From: a virus
Length of the DNA stretch: 56,564 nucleotides
IMG/VR virus record: IMGVR_UViG_3300008119_000546
Location: 1 to 56,564 of that record
Strand: one strand, 5' to 3'
Under the pieces are notes generated by a model. The model was not told the DNA's origin. It saw only the letters and a program-made list of their open reading frames with translations, and made no database searches. The position numbers were made by a program, and so were the translations under genes. Positions 7,936 to 24,174 of the stretch are shown piece after piece. Each line of letters begins with the position of its first letter. The stretch's first letter is position 1.

Positions 7936-7953
7936 AAGGATACCATTATCCTT
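7936..7953. terminator. Weak hairpin at the end of the S74 fibre gene
   Basis: AAGGATA-N4-TATCCTT overlaps the stop of the fibre gene at 7946. The following bases (ATTATGAATAG) are not a real T-run, so at most a partial terminator or an mRNA stabiliser. Confidence 0.3.
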
Positions 7954-10516
7954 CAAGGGCGTCAAGTCTAGTATTGGTTACATCAAGCTTCTCTGCTAAT
8001 TCTTGAATAGCTAGTGTCAGGGCTGTGGTCATTCTATCATAAGCTAAACCTTCTGTTTCCCCTAAAGCATTATAATTCACAAAGTCTTTTAATTTATCTA
8101 TTTGTTCTACATCTTCAGCAATCAAACCAGTTATTATTGGTCTAACTGTTTCATATCCTGGGGTTTCGTCAATGTCTGTTTCTTGAAGTTTATATGAAAA
8201 TTTAACTGGCTTTAATAGTTTAATTGCATCTAAGTATCCAGTGCTTTCTATTTCAGAAATGTTTTCTTTGTATCTTAAACTAGAAGAAGCAACTCTTATG
8301 TACCCTTGTGAATCTTGCACTAATCCAGTTCCCGATCCAGTTCCAAGTGTGTTTGCATAAATTCTTCCAGTATTAAGGAATACCGAATATGGCTGCTGCG
8401 CTGTAACGTTTGTTATAGTATCGCTTCCGCCATGCCCCATATAAACCCTACCGCTACTTCTTACGTCATTCCATCTAAAGTTTGGTAGTCCCAAATCAAT
8501 GTTTGGAGATCCTGGCATATATGGGTACCAATGTGTTGTAACGCCACCAGTTGCGCTAGACTCAATTCCAATTGCATTTACAACTAAAGAATCTATTCCA
8601 GCCTTATTTCCTTTTGTATCCAAGTAATAGCTTGTGTTAAGTGCTCCAGCTGTTAATCTGTGACCTGAAAGTGTACCAACTGTAATCTTAGAGGCTGCAA
8701 TTTCAAATGAAGAAATAAAGTTTGTAACAACAGCGTCGGCAGAAATTGTTCCTGTTCTTATTATTCCGCCTTCGATAGTTGTTGTATTAGTACTATTATT
8801 TATTTTAGCTATTATAGCTTCTTTGTTAAAATCGCCCCGTGGTACAGAAGCTAATACTGCTGCGTTTTTAGCAGCCTCAGCTTTTGTTGTTGCATCTCCT
8901 GCTGCTGCATTAATTGCTGCTGTCTGCGCCGCACTTGCCTTGGTAGTGGCATCTGCGGCTGCAGATGACAGTATGCCATTTACAGAATCTGAAGTAGCAT
9001 ATCCAGCAAATACAGCACCAGTTGCATACAAAGTTCCATCTGCTGCGACTCTAAATTTTGCATTTGCGTCTGGTGTATTATTACCAGCCCACATAAGAAA
9101 GCCACCAGAAGATTTTAAATAAACGCTCTGGGCCGCAGTGGACCCTACCTGTATTTGTCCTGTGCTGTCTAAGATAATATTGTTTTTAGATAATGTTGTA
9201 CCGCTTAAGTTCCAACCACCAATTGATCCAGCATTGGCTGTTATAGTTCCTGTTGCTGCTGCAATTGTTACAGAGTTAACGCCGTTAGCAACTTTTAATC
9301 CTGTTGAGTTTAACGCAAATCCATCACCAGTCAAGTTGCCAGTTGTAGCGTCTATTGTTCCATTATATATAGATGCTCCAGCTGTAGTCATATATATATT
9401 ACCGCTAAACTGCCCACCTCTTGCGGTAATGTTTCCATCTACTGCAAATGTTGAGCCGTCCCATAATAGATAGTTGCTTGATGCTCCGCCAACCTTAAGC
9501 CTTGCGCTATTTGTAGCATTGACATACCAGTAGTTACTAGCGTCAAAATATAATCCTTTGTTTGTTGATACAGATCCTACGCCTACGCCAAATTGGAATG
9601 GCCCACCTGTAATAAAGTTTGATACAGATGGAGTACCATTAACTGTAACATCTGCTCCAGATACATATGATGACGATGTATTATTATATTCATCATAAGT
9701 TGCAACTGCTATCTTATATGTTGATCCAATTGCAAGACCCGCAAGCTTGTATGTTGTTCCCGTCCCTGGCGAATCAACATAGGAATATGTTGCGTTGTTG
9801 TCATTACTAAATCTAATTCTATATCCTCTTATGCCACCGCCTGTTACTGCTGGCCAAGATATGTTTGCATATGCGTTAAATCCTAAATACCCAGATGTGT
9901 CGATACCGCTATCAGATGAATTAACTGAAGTAACATTGTCTGGGCCAACCGTGTCTACGACAATTGGATCTGTTGCTTTAAATGGTCCGTATGTTACACT
10001 TTTCTTTCTAAAATCTTGATCTCTTGTGTCAACTCTTATCCATCTATTTGCTGTGTTTGAAACAAGTATAGTTGCAGAGCTTCCATTTCCATTCCAAACT
10101 AAATATTCTTCTCCAGCAAACGCTCCAGTTAAACTTTCATATATTTGTATATCTATCAACCATTTATTTGCAGGTAATAATTTATCAATTAGATCCCATT
10201 TAGCCGTGTAAGAAAGAAGTCCTGGAGTTACAACAAGATTTGTTACTGGCTGAGTTAAATCGGGAGTTTGTAGCGTAACTATAAAGTTGGGGGACCTGGT
10301 TCCAGGAATAAGGTTTGAGGCATTATTTGGATCAGAGTATAAGTACGCAAATGAGAATTGGTACTTGCCATTCATTACAACATTTAGACCTGATTTTGTA
10401 ACAGTAAAAGCATCTGCAGTTTTTGTATTGGCTGCCTTAGCGGCATCGGCATTTGTTTTTTCTAAATCAGCAGGAGTTGGTTGCCACCATCTATCTCCGT
10501 AACCTCTATCAGACAT
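7946..10516 (-). CDS. Tail fibre with FN3-like domains and S74 intramolecular chaperone
   Basis: 856 residues. The N-terminal part contains beta-sandwich segments of fibronectin type III character (e.g. VTSVNSSDSGIDTSG, ITWPAVTGG-like, YRIRFSNDNN). The centre is repetitive beta material (TIDATTGNLTGDGFALNSTG) as in phage central fibres, with an alanine-rich helical cassette near residues 530-570. The last 112 residues form a Peptidase_S74 endosialidase-type chaperone: SSLRYKENI holds the S-x2-R-x-K catalytic signature, followed by FSYKLQE, GLIAEDVEQI and a C-terminal coiled coil. Such domains trimerise the fibre and cleave themselves off before the serine. Start overlaps the previous stop (TAATG). 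Confidence 0.85.
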   Translation of the reverse strand: MSDRGYGDRWWQPTPADLEKTNADAAKAANTKTADAFTVTKSGLNVVMNGKYQFSFAYLYSDPNNASNLIPGTRSPNFIVTLQTPDLTQPVTNLVVTPGLLSYTAKWDLIDKLLPANKWLIDIQIYESLTGAFAGEEYLVWNGNGSSATILVSNTANRWIRVDTRDQDFRKKSVTYGPFKATDPIVVDTVGPDNVTSVNSSDSGIDTSGYLGFNAYANISWPAVTGGGIRGYRIRFSNDNNATYSYVDSPGTGTTYKLAGLAIGSTYKIAVATYDEYNNTSSSYVSGADVTVNGTPSVSNFITGGPFQFGVGVGSVSTNKGLYFDASNYWYVNATNSARLKVGGASSNYLLWDGSTFAVDGNITARGGQFSGNIYMTTAGASIYNGTIDATTGNLTGDGFALNSTGLKVANGVNSVTIAAATGTITANAGSIGGWNLSGTTLSKNNIILDSTGQIQVGSTAAQSVYLKSSGGFLMWAGNNTPDANAKFRVAADGTLYATGAVFAGYATSDSVNGILSSAAADATTKASAAQTAAINAAAGDATTKAEAAKNAAVLASVPRGDFNKEAIIAKINNSTNTTTIEGGIIRTGTISADAVVTNFISSFEIAASKITVGTLSGHRLTAGALNTSYYLDTKGNKAGIDSLVVNAIGIESSATGGVTTHWYPYMPGSPNIDLGLPNFRWNDVRSSGRVYMGHGGSDTITNVTAQQPYSVFLNTGRIYANTLGTGSGTGLVQDSQGYIRVASSSLRYKENISEIESTGYLDAIKLLKPVKFSYKLQETDIDETPGYETVRPIITGLIAEDVEQIDKLKDFVNYNALGETEGLAYDRMTTALTLAIQELAEKLDVTNTRLDALEG

Positions 10517-14939: not shown

Positions 14940-15388
14940 TATACTTCTTCCAGTGCAATAGTTACATCCCAAAATGCCTGTGCTGTATCCGCTACTTTGT
15001 CCTTTACATTTCTTTTAATTAAATTAAATGAACATGAAGTAAAGCTTGCAACGAAATCTTCGGTTCTGGCTGTGTTATAAGCTATTCTGGCATTAAATGT
15101 ACCTTGACCTTTAGCGCTTAAATAGAATGTCTTTATGTCTTCCGCTCCCCAGCCCGCATCAACGGTCATAGTAGAGTATGAAGGAACCATGCTCCAGGAG
15201 GTAGATATGTTCTTCTTATCGGCTATAAACAGCTTTCTAAGGCTTCCATTGGCCATTCTAGCGGTCTGCTCAAAACGTTGAACGTCTACGGATATTGGTG
15301 ACCTATTATGTTCAGTTAATTTTTGCCATACGCCATTGGCATCCTGTATAAACAGTGCTGAGCCTACTGGTAAAACTAAAGCTGCCAT
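14939..15388 (-). CDS. Minor tail protein (distal-tail/tube-like fold)
   Basis: 149 residues. Recognisable actinophage tail-protein pattern: ARMANGSLRKLFIADKKNIS, then STSWSMVPSYSTMTVDAGWG, FYLSAKGQGTFNARI and a final WDVTIALEEV. These proteins lie directly after the tape measure and adopt a tail-tube or distal-tail (Dit) fold forming the platform for the hub. Both ends are coupled to neighbours (stop overlaps the hub start; start touches the tape-measure stop). Shine-Dalgarno GGGGAAG-like upstream is inside the tape-measure gene. Confidence 0.75.
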   Translation of the reverse strand: MAALVLPVGSALFIQDANGVWQKLTEHNRSPISVDVQRFEQTARMANGSLRKLFIADKKNISTSWSMVPSYSTMTVDAGWGAEDIKTFYLSAKGQGTFNARIAYNTARTEDFVASFTSCSFNLIKRNVKDKVADTAQAFWDVTIALEEV

Positions 15389-18300
15389 TATATATTCTTC
15401 CCCTGTCCAACCATTTTAACATTAACTTTAGCCTTTTGTCCAATAACAACTTCAGCCTTTTTAACAATCATATTTGACAATGCCTCGACATCCATTCCTT
15501 CAGACGCATAAATATTTTGATTTACAACATATGAATTACCTGAAGTAGTTCCGTCCTTTAAATTATATTGAGCTTTGTTAAAGTTGTATCTTGGAGATGC
15601 AGCAGCTAATGTATTCATAACATCGTTTGGCATAATGTTGGCACGGTTTTTTAAGTGAACAAATTCTGGTCCCTTTTCTCCAACAAGGTACATTCCACTA
15701 GCTCCACTTTTTACACCAGCAGCAGCCTTACCCATGAAAACAATATTGCCACCTGTCTTGCTCTTGCCATATCTTTGACCATTCCAAATAAAAGTTTCTC
15801 CTATTTGTAGGTCCTGTTGATTTGCAATTGATCTTCTAGCCTGTGCATTTAAAACCTTTGTCTTAACTCCATTATATGTATTTTCATCCATGGCATTTGA
15901 ATAATTTCCTGTAACTGCAATATCTTTTCTTAGGGCTGGCTTTCCGTCTACACCCTTTACAGCATTTACAACATCTTTAAGGGTTGCTCCGCCCTTAATG
16001 CTATTGGCAAGTGCGTCGTTGACTGCAGAACCTGTTCCTGCTTTTGCTAATATTGATAGTGCATTTGCCTGTGGAGAAACTGCAACTTTTTTAGTTACTA
16101 CTTTTCCACCTTCATAATTTTGAAAATCAGTATACCTTGGCATTTTTTCGCCAGTGGCAGCTTCTACTGCAGCAACTAATCCAGCTGCTGCTTCTTTATT
16201 GGTCTTAACATATTCTTCTACTGATTTACCAGCTGCAGCTGCATTACCATAAAGGGCAGTCATTGAATCATTGACCTTGTCTATTGCTGCTTTTTGCTCA
16301 TCGTATTTACCACGAACCTTATCTAAGCTTTCACCAGCAAGTGCTGCGCTATCTGCAAGACCTTGCTGCTTATTGCCCATTGCCTCAATGGCAGCCTTAA
16401 GTGGTGCATTTGCAGCTTCATTCGCTTTGTCAATTGCTTTACTTTGAGATTCTGTTTGCTGTTGCGTTGTTAATGATTCTAGATCAAGCCTTAGCTCTTG
16501 AGCTTTTTGAGTGTCTCCAGTTGCTGAAGCATTTTGCATTTCAAGTCTAGTTTTTTCAATCTGTCTGCCAAGGTCGGCGTCTGCTTGTGCAGCAGATAAT
16601 GCTTTCTTTCTAGCTTCTGCAAGTTTATTATTAGCTTCAATTTGCTTGTTTAGTGCAGATATCTTTTCTCTATCAGATATCTGCTGAGAAACTGTTTGAC
16701 CCTTTAATGCCTTAGTGTAAGATTTAATCTTGTCTTCTAGTTTGCCAAGAGCAGAATACTGCTTGCTCAACATTCCGTCTTTACTTGAATTTGTTGCAAC
16801 TACAGATGTTGCTATGGCATTAAATGAATCAGAAATTAATTGTGTTTGAGCAGCGTTTAATTGAGAAAGATCTCCAGTAAATCCTTTTGCCTGCAATCTA
16901 ATTTTTTGCCATACGCTAACAACTGTGTCTGAGCCATTGATCATTTTCTTTACTTCTGGATTTGTTTTTGCCATTTCATCAATTGTTCCCTGGGTAATCA
17001 TTGTCCCAGCTTCCTTTGATTTATTGATCTGGTCAATCATTATTTTTTCAGCTTCTGCAAAACTTAGTGACTTAGTCTTTCCAGTCAAATCTTTTGCTAC
17101 TAGTCTTTCTCTCTTTGCAATTAAATCATTAATTCCAGTCTCAGTTGCCATCAAGGCTGTATTTAATGAGGCTGCTTTTTCCTTATTGCCTTGATCCTTT
17201 GTGTCTTTGCCAAAGCTTGTGACTGCAGATACTGCGGCTGATTGAGGATCTGTAATTGCTTTAAAGTCTGCGTTGCCCATTGTTGCAGTAATTGATTGGT
17301 CGCTCTTATTTGAAAGCTGAAGCATTGTATAAACTTTTTTAGTTGCTTCTTCAGCAGACATGCCAGCTGCTATGAGCTGTTCTTTAATTCTGCGAACTGC
17401 GTCTGGCACCTTATTGGATGGCTGACGGTCTAATGCATCAATCTGCTCACTAAATGTTTCCTTAACTTCAACCTTTAGTTTTTTATATTCTGCAATCGTC
17501 ATCTGGAACGGTGTTCCGCCATCCTTCATGCTTTCATACACAAGCTTATTTGCAGCAGCCATATCTTTTGAATCTTGAATAGTATCTTTTATTTTTGAAC
17601 CAAAGTCTGTAAATCTTAGATTAGCTTTTTTAGCTGCTTCAGCAGTAAGACCAAATGTAGATATGTTAAGAGTTTGTCCTTCTTTATAATGTTTCCAGGC
17701 TTTATATCCAACATAAACTGCTGCTGTTACTGCTGCAAGCGGCGCAACTAATCCTGCGGCTGCTGCGGCGGTTGCTCCAAAACCTGCTGAAGCCAGTCCT
17801 GCTGTTGCTGCGCTAGCTGCGGCTCTTGATGCAATCTTGCCACCAATGCCCTTTACAATTGCTTGTCCGCCCATCATTCCAGCCATGCTGCCCATCATTG
17901 CACCATTTTGTCCGCCAAATTTTTCTCCAACCATTCCGCCAACTGCCATACCACCCATCATTCCAACTGTGCTTCCAACCGCTCCTTGTCCGAATGTTGC
18001 TGGGTTTATCATTCCTTTATTCTTTAAATATTGAATTGGATGAAGCATGTTAGAAGTTGTATACCTTGCGTTTGCAGCAAAGTTTTGTCCTAGAGTTGCT
18101 CCGCCATAAGCTCCTGGTGCTACAGGTGGAGGTGAAGCCGCCCAACCCTTAACATATGAACCAGCTGCTTTTATTTGAGCACCAACTGCTTTAGCAGTTG
18201 TAGAAATCTGTGAACCTATGTATTTTATACCAGTTACCAATGGGGTTAGTGCTGATTTAATTTGTCCTGGCAACATTCTTGCTCCAACCACAAGTTGGTC

Positions 18301-21300
18301 TCCAGAATACTTTATGACTCTTCCAGTCATAAGAGCATCTTTTTTAACGCTTGTACCAAATGCAAAGAGTGACATCTCTATTTGTTTTGCGGCAGATAGT
18401 AGAGCTGCTTGTGTTCTATTTAAAGCTGCATGACCTAATGTGAGTCCAGGCATATATGGCAAAGAACCTTGTACCCCGTATTGGTTCGTTCTAACACCGC
18501 CATTGCCAACTACTGTTGTTTTTGATCCAGTCAATGGACCAGGCTTACGCTCAGGTGCTTCTACTGGGGCAGGAACATATGCTGCTGCACGTTCTGCCTT
18601 AGCTCTTTCTTGTGCTGCACGAGCCGCAGGATTTCCCTTACGACCATATGAATCTTTTCCGTAACGAATAACTCCGCCTATTTCGTATCCAGGAATAATC
18701 TTTCCGCTTTGAGAAGGACTAAATATTTCTGGGCCCTTTTCTCCGACAACATAATTTTGTCCTGGAGATACTGGTCCACCCATTTCTCTTTTACCATCGA
18801 TGCTAAAGATTTTCTTCTTTAGCTCTGCAGTCATTGGTGTATCTTTTCTTGAATCCCAATTTAAATATTTGTTTCTAAGAATATCTTTATCGATTGGAGA
18901 TAGCTGTCTTAATAGATTTCTATCGCCAACTAAATCGCTAGCTGCTTGTCTAATTACTGAATCTAATGATGATGGCTCAAGAGCATTCTTTAGTGAACCT
19001 TGTGCATCCTTAACATAGCCATAAGGCTTTTCTCTTGCCATTGCAGCGGCAAACTTATCATAGAGTAGCTTTTGTGTATGTTTTCTTAAACCAGAACTTG
19101 CAAACAATGTGTTTGCCATTTCAATAGATAACGAGTTAACACCCCATGGAGCAGACTCATATGCACTAGGCTTAGGTGCTCCAGTTGGTCCAAATCCTGC
19201 ACCAATCCTTCTCATAGCTAATCCCTTAAGGACATTGCCAATTGTTCCTCCATGATTAAATCCATTTAAAGGTGTCTTAAAGGAATTGTCTGCAAGTGAT
19301 ATTGCATGTCCTTTTTGTCTTATTCTTAATTCTGCTTCTTCCTTTAGCTTCTTTAATGCTGCTGGAGTTAATGCCACACCATTGGCTGGCTTTACTGCAG
19401 AATGAATTCCATGAAATTCTTGCCAGTTAACATTCCTGCCCTGCTCAAGTCTTCTAATCATAGATGCATATACAGCTGACTCTTCTGCATTTAAATTAAA
19501 TTGTGAAATAGTTTTCTTTAATGCTGGAAGAACTGTATCAATTTCAGCAATCATTGCTTCATGATATTGCTTTGGTGTCATTCCCTTTGGTATGTTTAAT
19601 GTTGATTCTGCAAAGAATCTCTTTGCTCCGCCCCTTACTCCAAGCAAGTTAATACGTGCTTGGTCTGACATTGATATCATCTCTGGTTCGTAAGCTCTCT
19701 TACCAGAAGCCGTCTTGAATACACCAGCGGTTCCTACATCTGCTAGTGTGCCTCCGTAGAGATTACCTCTACCTAAATCTTTATCGCCTCTTAGGTTAGC
19801 TGCTACTAATTGCTTAAAATAATCTTTCTTTGTAAAATCTGCTGACTGCTTAGCAAATGCCTCATTGTATGGAGACTCTAAAACAATAAGCTTTCTTTTG
19901 CCAGTTGGATCAGTTGGATCAATCATTGTTCTAATTGATTGTTGTGGAGAATTAAGTCCGTGTGCTTGCCTTGCAATGATGGTTGCACGTTGTTCGGCTA
20001 ATGCAGCAGTTTCATCCATAACTGGTTTAACGAATACTCTTGTTCCATCTGGCTTTTCATATACCCCACCGATTCCTGGTACAGGGAAACTTCTTCCAGA
20101 TGTAGGTGTTATTAATTTACCAAAATCTGTTGGCTCCATAGAAGCAAACCTACTGTTTTTAAGTCCAGTATTAATTTCTTCCATATGAAGTCTAGCTTTT
20201 CTTTGTTGCTCAACATCTTTAATTCTTCTAGGCATTCCAAGGAATAGTGGTCTCCCGTATGAGCGCTTGCCCTTTGTAACAGAACCACCAATCATTCCGC
20301 CAGCATTTTTTCTTTCTACTACATTTCTTTTTAGAAGCTTTAGCTTAGCCGCAGATCCTCCTGCAGCAACAATGCTTGAATCTATAAATGGGATAAATGA
20401 ATCAAAGGTTATGTCTCCCTTTTCATCTCCAATTTTCTTTGACTCTTTGCCCTTTAATGACGCAGCAATTTTTGCATCAATTTCTTTTTCGGTATCTGAC
20501 CATTTTGATCTATGAACGCCTGCACGTTGCATAATTGTGTCATACTTACCTGTACGAGACATATTTCTTTCTAAGAAATTTTTTGCAATTAGGGTTCCAT
20601 GGTTTGCCTGAAGATTAGATCTTGAATCATAATCAACAGTATACTTACTTACAAATCTTCTACCATCTCTCACTGATGCTCTAGTTAAATGCGTAGCGTG
20701 TGTAATTCTTTCAAGGTCCAATGGTGGCAGTTTATTCTTTGCTAGTAATTTATCAAGTGCCCCACCACGCTCTAAATGCCCTGGCTCAATTGTAAAGGTG
20801 TCTCTGGCAAATCCTTTGTCCATTCCGCCTCTGCCAGTTCTTATAGAGCCAGAAAAATCTTCTAGTATGCTTGCAGCTCTTCTTCTTTCTCCAGCAGGTA
20901 AAGACTTTATATAGTCGTTAAGAACGGACCTTGTTGTTGCTCCTCTAGCTAACCAAGATCTGGATCCATAACCGCCTACATACTGTGCATCTCTTTCTCT
21001 TACGGCTGCTCTTTCTAAATTTCTTTTTTCTGCTAGTGTAACTAACTGTTTTCTATATGCTGTTCTATTTGATGTAAACAAGCCTCTTATTATTGCAGCA
21101 GACGGTGGTACTAAACCATAATTAGATCTAGAGAGTGTAATGTTTCCGCCAGCCATGTTTGCTTGCAGTGGTGTGCCATTGTTGGCAGCATCTACTGCTC
21201 TAAAAAGTTCTGGGTTATTCTGTAGTCCTGGACCAAACACTGTCTCCTGTGGAGTAAGCAAGGCAGTGATGTTGCTTCCAGAATCTTTATGTGTTGAAGG

Positions 21301-24174
21301 TGCTGCTGCGACTAATGCTGCGTTTCTTGGGTCTAATGACGCCTCCTGATTTAATACATATCCACCAAGCGGTACGGATCCCATTCTATCATCATAGTCA
21401 ATTGATGCTGGTCCAGTAACCCGTGTTTTATTTGCACTAAACTTTTCAACCTTACCGCCTTCATTAAATCTAGGCTTTGTTGTTTGAATACTATAACCAG
21501 CTCCAGAAGTTCTAACTCCAAGACCACGTGCTATTGAGTCTACTAACTTAGATGTTTCTGATTTATGGAAAAGCTCTTTCATGTTTGATTTTCCAGCTGC
21601 GCTTACAACTGGCTGAGTTGTTAATGGCACTGTAGTCAAACTAATAGTTCTTGCTTGAGCTGCTGCAACACCTTGTGCTGTTTGAACCATCATTGCTTCT
21701 ACTTGTGCATTTAATGCAAATATTTTAGCTCTTGCTGCTTCTACTGTAATCTTACCAGCTTGTAGCTGCTTAACAATTAAAGCAGTTTCGTCTGCTGCCA
21801 AAGAAGTTATCTTTGTCATTTGTGGAAGTAATGCTTGGTATGAATCTGTTAATGACGCAGTTACTGTTCCTGTAGCAGCTACTTCTGTTTTAAGTAATGC
21901 TAATTCTGCTTTTGACTGCATAGCAATTGCTGCCGTCATTGAATGCCATTTTGCTGCTTCTGCTGCTACTATACCATTAGAGACTCCATTTACTGAAGTA
22001 ACTCCAGGAATTCTTGGAAGATCATCATTCATGTATGTTTGTGGTGAATTTGAAAGTCTTAGGTTTACTGGCTTAGGACCAGGAACAGTAGAGAATATTG
22101 TTTCACCTGCTCTTTGTTCTGCAGTTTTTGATCCAGTTGGAATAACGTGAGACATGTCTCTTGAATAAGGTCTACCTACAAGAGGGTTGTCTTTGTCTAC
22201 AATTCTTCCTCCGCCACGCAAAACTGGGCTTCCTGCTACAGTAGACATGCTATTGCTTGTTGCAACAGTAGAAGACATGGCGCTTAATTTTAGTTTATCA
22301 AATGACGCTGCTAAAGTTAAGACTGCATCTGAAAATGTAGCAGCTGCTTTTGTGTCACTATAAAATGATTGCTCTACGGTTTTTGCAGCATTTGATGCTG
22401 CCATTAACTCTGGTGTTAATAGCTTAAATCCTGTTCCGCCTTTGCCAATATTCTTTAACGCAAATATTCCTTTTATTATATATCCAAAGAAGTTGGCGAG
22501 TACACCAGTTAACATAATAATAGGTCCAGCAATTGCTGTAAGACTTCCAATAAATCCTAGTACTGCTTTAATAGGTCCAGGAAGATTTCCAATAAACTTT
22601 ACAATTCCATCAATTGCATTTAATACAAATGTTCCTACTTTTAAGAATTGCTCTCCAATTACTGCAAGGTCTGCCTTTACGGCTTCAAGTGCTCTTCTGT
22701 ATTTACCAGAAGCAGACTCTGTCATTGCTTTTAATTCTCGCTCAGATATACTAGCTAAATCTTGTGTACTAGCTTTCATTAAGTCTAATACTTGTAAAGT
22801 CTGACTTCCTTCTTTTCCAAGGTTTTCAAACAACGCATTGATTCTTGCAAACTGAAACTTTCCAAATAGCTGCTCGATTGCTCTTGCTCTTTGCAATGGT
22901 TGTAGTGAGTCTAAAGAATCCTTAAGGGCCATGATTGTTCCAGTTAAGTTGCCAGCATTTTTATTAACAATTCCAGCTAAATCAATTCCCATTCCCATGA
23001 ACTGCTCTTTAGCAACCTTGGTTGGATTAATTATCGACGCTAATGCCGACTTTAGTGCGTTAGCTCCTTCTGAAGCATTAATTCCACCCTCACGCATTGC
23101 TGTTAAATAAAGTGCAAGATCTTGAACATCTCCACCCAATGCTTTTACAACTGGGCCAGCTTTAGGGATAGCCTCTACTAAATCTGCAAGGCTTGTTGAA
23201 GTTTGGTTTTCAACTGCGTTAAGAAAGTCAATGGATTGAGCAAGCTCTTCTGTACTTTGCCCAAATGCTGTTTGAATTGATAGAGTAGCTTTCATTGCCT
23301 CTTGTCTATCAACTTCACCAAGAATTGCAAGTCTAGTTGTTTGTCTTGTTGAGTCTAGAAGATCTACGCCCTCTTTACCAGTTGCAGCAATGTCAGCGGC
23401 CAAGGCAATTGTTTCTGTAAAGTTTGCACCTAACCCAGATGCTAATTCTCTAGACAGAGCTGATACATCTTTTCTAACTTTTAACAGGTCTGCTGATGAT
23501 GTTGCTGTTAATCCACCATAAACCTTTGTAAGTCTTACAAGCTCTTCGTCTGCTTGCCTAAATGCTTTTGCTGCAGCCATTCCAAATGCTGCTAGAGGTA
23601 CTGTAAGTCCTACAGTAAGTTGTCTACCAGCCCACTGTGTATTCTTACCCCAGTTAATAAGCTGGTTAGACCCATCCATCATTACCTTGTTCATAATGGA
23701 TAGTTCTTGTCTTAATAATGCAGACTTATTTTTTGTTGCGTCTAGTCCAGATTGAACCATTACGTTGTATTGCATTAATCCTTGAGCGTTTTTACCTAAC
23801 GGCTGTATGATTGCGTTCTCAAGCATTACTTGCTGTTTAGCTAAGTCTCTAACTAATGAGCTAGTTTTTTGTGTATGTCCTTGCCAGGTTCTAAAGTATT
23901 GCCCTAGCTTCATTCTTCCGCTATCTAGGTTCTGTCCGAACTTAGATACGTCTGAAGTTAGTGTTACAAAGTGTCTGGCAAACTGGCCAGTGGAGCGCAT
24001 GGTTTCGTCAAACTGACGATTCATTACTCCAACTTGGCTAGTTAAATTTTTATTTAAACCAATTGTTGTAGCTTGAAGTTTTAGAAGCTGGGTGGTCACC
24101 GCTTGTAACTGCGCTGTTAGGCTACTAAAATTAGCCGTCGCAGTTATGTTGGTAACTATATTTTGATCTGCCAA
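15388..24174 (-). CDS. Tail tape measure protein (2928 aa) with kinase-like insert
   Basis: Sets tail length and is ejected with the DNA. Residues about 200-480 form the tape-measure core of the PhageMin_Tail family (ADIAATGKEGVDLL, AMREGGINASEGANALKSAL). Hydrophobic segments lie at about 527-573 and a glycine-zipper/alanine-rich stretch at about 2064-2155 (GMMGGMAVGGMVG), likely membrane-inserting. The motif VGEKGPEIFSPS and a second copy VGEKGPEFVHL are typical tape-measure repeats. Residues about 1345-1500 contain a protein-kinase-like set of motifs (see findings). A long coiled coil follows residue 2400 or so. At about 1.5 angstrom per residue an all-helical ruler would correspond to a tail near 440 nm, unusually long. 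Start ATG lies close after the gpGT stop. Confidence 0.95.
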   Translation of the reverse strand: MADQNIVTNITATANFSSLTAQLQAVTTQLLKLQATTIGLNKNLTSQVGVMNRQFDETMRSTGQFARHFVTLTSDVSKFGQNLDSGRMKLGQYFRTWQGHTQKTSSLVRDLAKQQVMLENAIIQPLGKNAQGLMQYNVMVQSGLDATKNKSALLRQELSIMNKVMMDGSNQLINWGKNTQWAGRQLTVGLTVPLAAFGMAAAKAFRQADEELVRLTKVYGGLTATSSADLLKVRKDVSALSRELASGLGANFTETIALAADIAATGKEGVDLLDSTRQTTRLAILGEVDRQEAMKATLSIQTAFGQSTEELAQSIDFLNAVENQTSTSLADLVEAIPKAGPVVKALGGDVQDLALYLTAMREGGINASEGANALKSALASIINPTKVAKEQFMGMGIDLAGIVNKNAGNLTGTIMALKDSLDSLQPLQRARAIEQLFGKFQFARINALFENLGKEGSQTLQVLDLMKASTQDLASISERELKAMTESASGKYRRALEAVKADLAVIGEQFLKVGTFVLNAIDGIVKFIGNLPGPIKAVLGFIGSLTAIAGPIIMLTGVLANFFGYIIKGIFALKNIGKGGTGFKLLTPELMAASNAAKTVEQSFYSDTKAAATFSDAVLTLAASFDKLKLSAMSSTVATSNSMSTVAGSPVLRGGGRIVDKDNPLVGRPYSRDMSHVIPTGSKTAEQRAGETIFSTVPGPKPVNLRLSNSPQTYMNDDLPRIPGVTSVNGVSNGIVAAEAAKWHSMTAAIAMQSKAELALLKTEVAATGTVTASLTDSYQALLPQMTKITSLAADETALIVKQLQAGKITVEAARAKIFALNAQVEAMMVQTAQGVAAAQARTISLTTVPLTTQPVVSAAGKSNMKELFHKSETSKLVDSIARGLGVRTSGAGYSIQTTKPRFNEGGKVEKFSANKTRVTGPASIDYDDRMGSVPLGGYVLNQEASLDPRNAALVAAAPSTHKDSGSNITALLTPQETVFGPGLQNNPELFRAVDAANNGTPLQANMAGGNITLSRSNYGLVPPSAAIIRGLFTSNRTAYRKQLVTLAEKRNLERAAVRERDAQYVGGYGSRSWLARGATTRSVLNDYIKSLPAGERRRAASILEDFSGSIRTGRGGMDKGFARDTFTIEPGHLERGGALDKLLAKNKLPPLDLERITHATHLTRASVRDGRRFVSKYTVDYDSRSNLQANHGTLIAKNFLERNMSRTGKYDTIMQRAGVHRSKWSDTEKEIDAKIAASLKGKESKKIGDEKGDITFDSFIPFIDSSIVAAGGSAAKLKLLKRNVVERKNAGGMIGGSVTKGKRSYGRPLFLGMPRRIKDVEQQRKARLHMEEINTGLKNSRFASMEPTDFGKLITPTSGRSFPVPGIGGVYEKPDGTRVFVKPVMDETAALAEQRATIIARQAHGLNSPQQSIRTMIDPTDPTGKRKLIVLESPYNEAFAKQSADFTKKDYFKQLVAANLRGDKDLGRGNLYGGTLADVGTAGVFKTASGKRAYEPEMISMSDQARINLLGVRGGAKRFFAESTLNIPKGMTPKQYHEAMIAEIDTVLPALKKTISQFNLNAEESAVYASMIRRLEQGRNVNWQEFHGIHSAVKPANGVALTPAALKKLKEEAELRIRQKGHAISLADNSFKTPLNGFNHGGTIGNVLKGLAMRRIGAGFGPTGAPKPSAYESAPWGVNSLSIEMANTLFASSGLRKHTQKLLYDKFAAAMAREKPYGYVKDAQGSLKNALEPSSLDSVIRQAASDLVGDRNLLRQLSPIDKDILRNKYLNWDSRKDTPMTAELKKKIFSIDGKREMGGPVSPGQNYVVGEKGPEIFSPSQSGKIIPGYEIGGVIRYGKDSYGRKGNPAARAAQERAKAERAAAYVPAPVEAPERKPGPLTGSKTTVVGNGGVRTNQYGVQGSLPYMPGLTLGHAALNRTQAALLSAAKQIEMSLFAFGTSVKKDALMTGRVIKYSGDQLVVGARMLPGQIKSALTPLVTGIKYIGSQISTTAKAVGAQIKAAGSYVKGWAASPPPVAPGAYGGATLGQNFAANARYTTSNMLHPIQYLKNKGMINPATFGQGAVGSTVGMMGGMAVGGMVGEKFGGQNGAMMGSMAGMMGGQAIVKGIGGKIASRAAASAATAGLASAGFGATAAAAAGLVAPLAAVTAAVYVGYKAWKHYKEGQTLNISTFGLTAEAAKKANLRFTDFGSKIKDTIQDSKDMAAANKLVYESMKDGGTPFQMTIAEYKKLKVEVKETFSEQIDALDRQPSNKVPDAVRRIKEQLIAAGMSAEEATKKVYTMLQLSNKSDQSITATMGNADFKAITDPQSAAVSAVTSFGKDTKDQGNKEKAASLNTALMATETGINDLIAKRERLVAKDLTGKTKSLSFAEAEKIMIDQINKSKEAGTMITQGTIDEMAKTNPEVKKMINGSDTVVSVWQKIRLQAKGFTGDLSQLNAAQTQLISDSFNAIATSVVATNSSKDGMLSKQYSALGKLEDKIKSYTKALKGQTVSQQISDREKISALNKQIEANNKLAEARKKALSAAQADADLGRQIEKTRLEMQNASATGDTQKAQELRLDLESLTTQQQTESQSKAIDKANEAANAPLKAAIEAMGNKQQGLADSAALAGESLDKVRGKYDEQKAAIDKVNDSMTALYGNAAAAGKSVEEYVKTNKEAAAGLVAAVEAATGEKMPRYTDFQNYEGGKVVTKKVAVSPQANALSILAKAGTGSAVNDALANSIKGGATLKDVVNAVKGVDGKPALRKDIAVTGNYSNAMDENTYNGVKTKVLNAQARRSIANQQDLQIGETFIWNGQRYGKSKTGGNIVFMGKAAAGVKSGASGMYLVGEKGPEFVHLKNRANIMPNDVMNTLAAASPRYNFNKAQYNLKDGTTSGNSYVVNQNIYASEGMDVEALSNMIVKKAEVVIGQKAKVNVKMVGQGKNI
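19400..20150 (-). other. Kinase-like segment inside the tape measure protein
   Basis: Residues about 1345-1590 of the tape measure. In order: glycine-rich PGIGGVYEKPDG, strand RVFVKP with Lys1383, helix with Glu1394 (ALAEQRATII), hinge-like KLIVLESP, GDKDLGRGN with Asp1466 and Asn1471 at the D-x4-N spacing of protein kinases, then LADVG with Asp1479. This order is that of protein, PI or HipA-like kinases. Assignment is by eye. Confidence 0.5.

Follow-up and report, generated by a model that had tools for sequence, protein, structure and literature searches.

A predicted kinase-like domain in an optional cassette of a phage tape measure protein

Virion-borne effectors are already known, among them polyvalent-protein kinases, phage-head ADP-ribosyltransferases (ARTs) and injection-system effectors derived from tape measure proteins (TMPs). 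Specifically, phages and conjugative elements encode polyvalent proteins, which are multi-domain effectors carried in the virion, with ART and protein kinase domains, and are predicted to be injected (Iyer et al. 2017, PMC5512222). ARTs packaged in the phage head, such as T4 Alt, are injected protein-modifying enzymes that act before phage gene expression (PMC9503650). In actinobacterial contractile injection systems, the Sle1-type effectors are TMP-derived carriers of structurally diverse functional domains (PMC13277306), and in phage P23-45 a virion RNA polymerase is fused to the TMP, with a proposed action at the membrane during DNA entry (PMC10770324). Whether a phage overcomes its host is decided by enzymes delivered at the very start of infection, and few of them are known in siphophages.

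The locus described here lies in a window, i.e. the whole stretch of DNA that was analysed (56,564 nucleotides of an IMG/VR viral contig), which is a structural block of a tailed phage, with genes for head, tail and fibres. Its 2928-aa open reading frame (ORF) is identified as a TMP because PF10145 (PhageMin_Tail) matches residues 243-438 with E 2e-27 in the Pfam search, and PHROG tape-measure families cover residues 122-861 of the same ORF with E up to 1.7e-116; the profile matches and the tail-gene context are both present. The features of the carrier are as follows.

15388..24174, (-) strand: TMP gene, 2928 aa, TTG start as listed (ORF list, Pfam, PHROG)
22255..23784, (-) strand: TMP head, residues 131-640, present in every relative whose 5′ end is intact
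22456..22575, (-) strand: hydrophobic segment, residues 534-573, putatively membrane-inserting (hydropathy scan)
17704..17802, (-) strand: second hydrophobic region, residues 2125-2157 (hydropathy scan)

Relatives of the TMP head among 50,697 phage records reach about 32-35% identity, the best being those of Streptomyces phages. Isolates are available for phages that infect freshwater Nanopelagicales (PMC10202952). Elsewhere in the tail block, an 856-aa protein is encoded at window positions 7946-10516, (-) strand, the C-terminal 150 residues of which match minor head protein families.

From the order of motifs, the sequence-only reading had proposed a kinase-like domain inside this TMP, at 19400-20150. 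The model, the structural matches, the conservation across homologues and the TMP profiles all bear this out, and the location stands, although the domain proves slightly wider than that interval (19375-20187) and sits in a cassette of residues about 1289-1641. The five residues that had been singled out (K1383, E1394, D1466, N1471 and D1479) are exactly where they had been placed.

19252..20310, (-) strand: kinase-like cassette, residues about 1289-1641, with a GG linker on either side, NAGGMIGG ... FNHGGTIG (linkers, junctions)
19375..20187, (-) strand: predicted kinase-like domain, residues about 1330-1600 (AlphaFold2, VIA-align, Foldseek, conservation)
20065..20097, (-) strand: glycine-rich loop G-R-SFPVPGIGG, residues 1360-1370 (G1360, S1362, F1363, P1364 and G1370 invariant, n=94)
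20026..20028, (-) strand: Lys1383 in VFVKP, predicted ATP-binding lysine of strand 3 (94/94; strand in the model)
19993..19995, (-) strand: Glu1394, predicted helix C partner of Lys1383 (E 92/94, Q 2/94)
19777..19785, (-) strand: Asp1464-Lys-Asp1466, catalytic loop, with Asp1466 the predicted catalytic base (both Asp 94/94)
19762..19764, (-) strand: Asn1471 (D-x4-N), predicted metal ligand (94/94)
19732..19740, (-) strand: Asp1479-Val-Gly1481, predicted DFG-like metal-binding motif (D and G 94/94)

Residues 1299-1638, used as the query against 2.9 million viral contigs, returned at least 38 relatives, and alignment queries against the same contigs returned at least 142 and then at least 355 candidate stretches, with contigs recurring between the result sets. 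Conservation was counted over the 94 distinct domain sequences among the matches listed, in which pairwise identity falls to about 41-45%. Conservation of residues in the kinase-like domain is well supported: the strand-3 Lys, the D-x4-N catalytic loop and the D-x-G metal motif stand in the correct order in all 94 domains, and K1383, P1384, D1464, D1466, L1467, N1471, D1479 and G1481, together with the five loop residues named above, never vary. Loss of the Lys or Asp residues in homologues, which the sequence-only reading had asked after, was thus never found. Two details count against the kinase reading, namely the substitution of Glu1394 by Q in 2 of the 94 domains (E in the other 92) and the short spacing of 8 between Asn1471 and the DxG motif.

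The structure of the domain was predicted with AlphaFold2 from 40 aligned homologues (model residue n being TMP residue 1298+n), giving a model with pLDDT 84.5 and pTM 0.79. In this model, strand 55-59 is followed by the glycine loop, strand 72-75, strand 81-87 (with K1383) and helix 90-105 (with E1394); then come strands 115-120 and 130-137, a hinge, helices 140-143 and 151-164, the catalytic loop D1466...N1471, D1479-V-G and a helical C-lobe. The kinase residues therefore fall in the right elements of the model, i.e. K1383 in a strand, E1394 in the next helix and D1466/N1471 in a loop after a helix. VIA-align, run against PDB chains preselected by Foldseek, listed matches that are kinase-like folds: CotH (5jda) at the top with Z 11.7 over 218 residues and rmsd 4.0, CtkA (3akk) with Z 10.4 over 199 residues, PI4KIIalpha (4hnd) with Z 9.6 over 214, LepB (9.0), VPS34 (8.9), Fam20C (4kqb, 8.8), HipA (2wiu, 8.6) and actin-fragmin kinase (8.3). 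In the Foldseek search of the PDB no match fell below E 5e-3, the best being LepB at 5e-3 and then CtkA, so the call of a kinase fold rests on the VIA-align Z scores and the order of motifs. Against predicted viral proteins Foldseek gave stronger matches (E 1.5e-5), several of them being large phage proteins annotated as ADP-ribosyltransferase or portal, and one a halovirus protein annotated as PI3K/PI4K. All fold evidence in this work comes from two structure predictions, of the present domain and of the ART-like module described below. The predicted two-lobed, kinase-like fold of TMP residues about 1330-1600 is well supported, and the structure prediction that had been proposed as a check thus came out kinase-like, by AlphaFold2 and VIA-align alike.

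Searches for a family were less productive. The comparison with kinase, HipA and PI-kinase profiles, also proposed beforehand, yielded no significant match (Pfam, 40 members; hhalign for HipA), and sequence searches of Pfam, PHROGs, NCBIfam, PADLOC and the PDB (phmmer, profile) returned no match to the domain. Matches to BPA, NanE and IucA_IucC were short and below cut-off, and PHROG matches on some members of the domain alignment (A3) are located on the linker after the domain and not on the domain itself. A eukaryotic-type Ser/Thr/Tyr kinase was rejected, as D-K-D stands in place of HRD and none of 40 domain members matches a Pfam kinase at E up to 1. HipA has no Pfam match either, and hhalign of alignment A3 against nine HipA sequences gave a probability of 0.5% and E 0.12, which is not significant overall, with VFVKP falling on the HipA lysine in the best alignment. 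PI3/PI4 kinase (PF00454) finds no Pfam match in the record or in 40 members, though PI4KIIalpha is among the structural matches above; the same 40 members lack a Pfam match to CotH kinase, though CotH gives the best structural Z. Pattern scans of 84,980 cellular genomes found no relatives of the domain, and tblastn found none in the 50,697 phage records. Because the model is kinase-like, yet no profile matches and the HipA comparison is not significant, the domain is best described as a predicted divergent member of the kinase-fold superfamily, assigned to no family. The failure of every family profile to detect it is what one would expect if there were no kinase-like domain and the order of motifs were coincidental, but the topology of the model, the kinase-like VIA-align matches listed and the strict conservation leave that reading with next to no probability.

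A fold does not reveal substrate specificity, and an injected enzyme with this fold might arguably carry out another chemistry, i.e. the transfer of AMP (SelO-like) or of glutamate (SidJ-like), or the phosphorylation of lipids or small molecules. Its fold is near atypical families that include the lipid kinases PI4KIIalpha and VPS34, and SidJ is among the Foldseek matches; the KP that follows the catalytic Lys, and the order of D-x4-N, also resemble features of PI4KII/Fam20-type kinases. While nothing specific speaks against such a chemistry, D-x4-N together with DxG is what an ordinary kinase has, and we regard the alternative as rather unlikely.

The kinase-like domain is carried on an optional unit. 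Every kinase ORF with an intact 5′ end has the TMP head, and distant relatives share with the window only this head (about 37-41% identity) and the kinase domain (about 46-65%), the TMP sequence between the two and after the kinase being different. Of the TMPs closest in the head region, 53 have a complete 3′ end; the cassette is present in 26 of these and absent from 27 (two of the latter being short ORFs that are probably broken). The cleanest pair is that of L003 and L171, in which presence and absence are bounded by FN-x-GG linkers: the two TMP genes are 87% identical in DNA across the first 3,803 nt, after which L003 alone has an insert of about 1 kb that encodes the kinase, and identity returns (82%) at the linker FN-x-GG-x-IGNVLKGLAMRR. 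The positions on either side of the cassette are modular as well.

20308..21117, (-) strand: upstream variable module, residues about 1020-1289, family 3 (module clustering, pairwise BLASTP)
18784..19254, (-) strand: family 1 module downstream of the cassette, residues about 1641-1797, with the MGGPVSPGQNYVVGEKGPE motif at its end (module clustering)

Where heads are 86-96% identical to that of the window, the modules in the upstream position fall into at least five unrelated families, whether or not a kinase follows (the module counts come from splitting by regular expression and are lower bounds). The upstream module of the window has no Pfam match in the whole-protein search, and none of the alternative families in sister phages is known to Pfam. 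Downstream, family 1 is common to many TMPs both with and without the kinase, and the MGGPVSPGQNYVVGEKGPE motif that closes it is matched by PHROG tape-measure families. Kinase domains can diverge by 20-30% between phages with heads more than 90% identical. No pair combines heads below 55% identity with kinases above 75%, and the exchange observed is therefore confined to related phages. The TMPs of kinase carriers with complete ORFs range from about 2,400 to 4,140 aa (L017 3693 aa, L043 4141 aa), a spread that leaves some doubt over how cassettes count in tail length. TMPs that lack the cassette measure about 2,500 aa, against the 2,928 aa of the window TMP. In L033 (7779-11381), TMP residues about 1263-1304, downstream of the kinase, have a weak GNAT match (PF00583, E 0.0075, below cut-off) and are possibly another enzyme cassette, to judge from this sequence match.

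Optionality of this kind argues against a structural or assembly need. An enzyme could instead work in the producing cell or in the virion, with tail or head proteins as its targets during assembly, and have no role in the next host; modification of virion components is known from T4-type phages, and the TMP is made alongside the structural genes, the window itself being a structural block. Nevertheless, many sister phages with near-identical heads lack the cassette and presumably assemble normally (L171, with a head 94% identical to that of the window, is one), which makes an assembly role very improbable.

A second enzyme fold occurs in the same region of a sister TMP. The TMP of L181 has a head 89% identical to that of the window and no kinase, and in the corresponding region it carries a 245-residue module (L181:13481-14215) that is present in 23 viral loci. 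Its model is of moderate confidence (pLDDT 70.7). Foldseek against the PDB matches it to ARTs, with 26 matches at E <1e-3 and an ART match at E 1.7e-4, and the best 50 VIA-align matches are all ART enzymes, with Z up to 10.6. In 19 homologues R124, S159-x-S161 and E207-x-E209 are all invariant, so that both the predicted fold and the R, SxS and ExE residues of an ART are present. The alternation of two protein-modifying enzyme folds in one TMP region points to effector cargo and not to structure. TMPs do tolerate variation in length and the cassette obeys the general linker grammar of the protein, as would suit a pseudokinase or a stable globular fold retained for spacing or binding. A spacer, however, needs no invariant Lys, Asp, Asn, Asp and loop (n=94) among columns that otherwise vary; about half of the close TMPs do without the cassette, and the ART module in the corresponding region also retains its catalytic residues. 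A purely structural role is therefore improbable.

Taken together, we consider it probable that the cassette is a swappable TMP unit bearing a divergent, kinase-fold, ATP-dependent transferase, which the tail delivers to modify a target in the host. Residues about 1330-1600 would form an atypical enzyme of CotH/CtkA/PI4K/HipA-like kind, and the cassette would be gained, lost and exchanged with other enzyme cassettes (e.g. ADP-ribosyltransferase) at GG-rich linkers. The tail lumen would hold it as part of the TMP; a folded domain may not fit there, and would then travel unfolded or distorted. At infection the TMP would leave the tail ahead of or together with the DNA, the hydrophobic segments 534-573 and 2125-2157 would contact the membrane, and the cassette, lying between them, would arrive in the host cytoplasm. 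A host target, presumably a protein, would be modified before phage gene expression, most likely by phosphorylation. TMP copies per virion are few, which fits a catalytic cargo. The sequence-only reading had likewise suggested that such a kinase, if active, would be injected as an effector and act in the first minutes of infection, a suggestion that gains from the strictly conserved catalytic residues, the optional and exchangeable cassette and the ART fold of a sister phage.

More broadly, we lean towards the view, with some reserve, that in this uncultivated phage lineage the TMP serves as a combinatorial platform for effector delivery, comparable to a polymorphic-toxin system built into the tail ruler, in which (i) several cassette positions lie between conserved ends, (ii) the enzymes (kinase-like, ART and unknown folds) are interchangeable, (iii) recombination occurs at GG linkers and (iv) close relatives inject different sets of enzymes. 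The kinase-like family resides in the tail ruler with its catalytic residues intact, is found in hundreds of environmental contigs, is missed by current profile libraries and is swappable with an ART. If the proposal is true, TMPs would be a systematic place to search for injected effectors, and early host modification by siphophages would be directly testable.

Our search of the open-licence literature turned up no paper describing a TMP with a kinase-fold domain, or a phage TMP whose enzyme cassettes are exchangeable; a text search of the polyvalent-protein paper (PMC5512222) found no mention of tape measures, and the Sle1-type effector paper (PMC13277306) has no mention of kinase. Compared with known kinase-like proteins, the window domain is akin to CotH, CtkA, PI4KII, HipA and Fam20C in its predicted fold (Z 8.6-11.7) and in the order of Lys, D-x4-N and D-x-G, but it shares only 7-15% identity with them, has no profile match and is embedded in a viral TMP. 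The polyvalent-protein kinases are members of the Ser/Thr/Tyr superfamily without the C-terminal subdomain, whereas the window domain keeps the C-lobe helices and has no HRD (PMC5512222). T4 Alt is an ART carried in the head, whereas the predicted enzyme here is kinase-like and lies in the tail ruler, with an ART in sister TMPs (PMC9503650). The Sle1-type effectors resemble the window TMP as TMP-derived carriers of varied functional domains in Actinobacteria, but they belong to cellular injection systems and have the functional domain at the C-terminus, whereas the cassette is viral and lies mid-TMP (PMC13277306). The nearest precedent is P23-45, where an enzyme is likewise encoded within the tape measure protein (PMC10770324); there it is an RNA polymerase at the TMP N-terminus of a Thermus phage, whereas the window has an optional, exchangeable kinase-like cassette halfway along a TMP of actinophage type.
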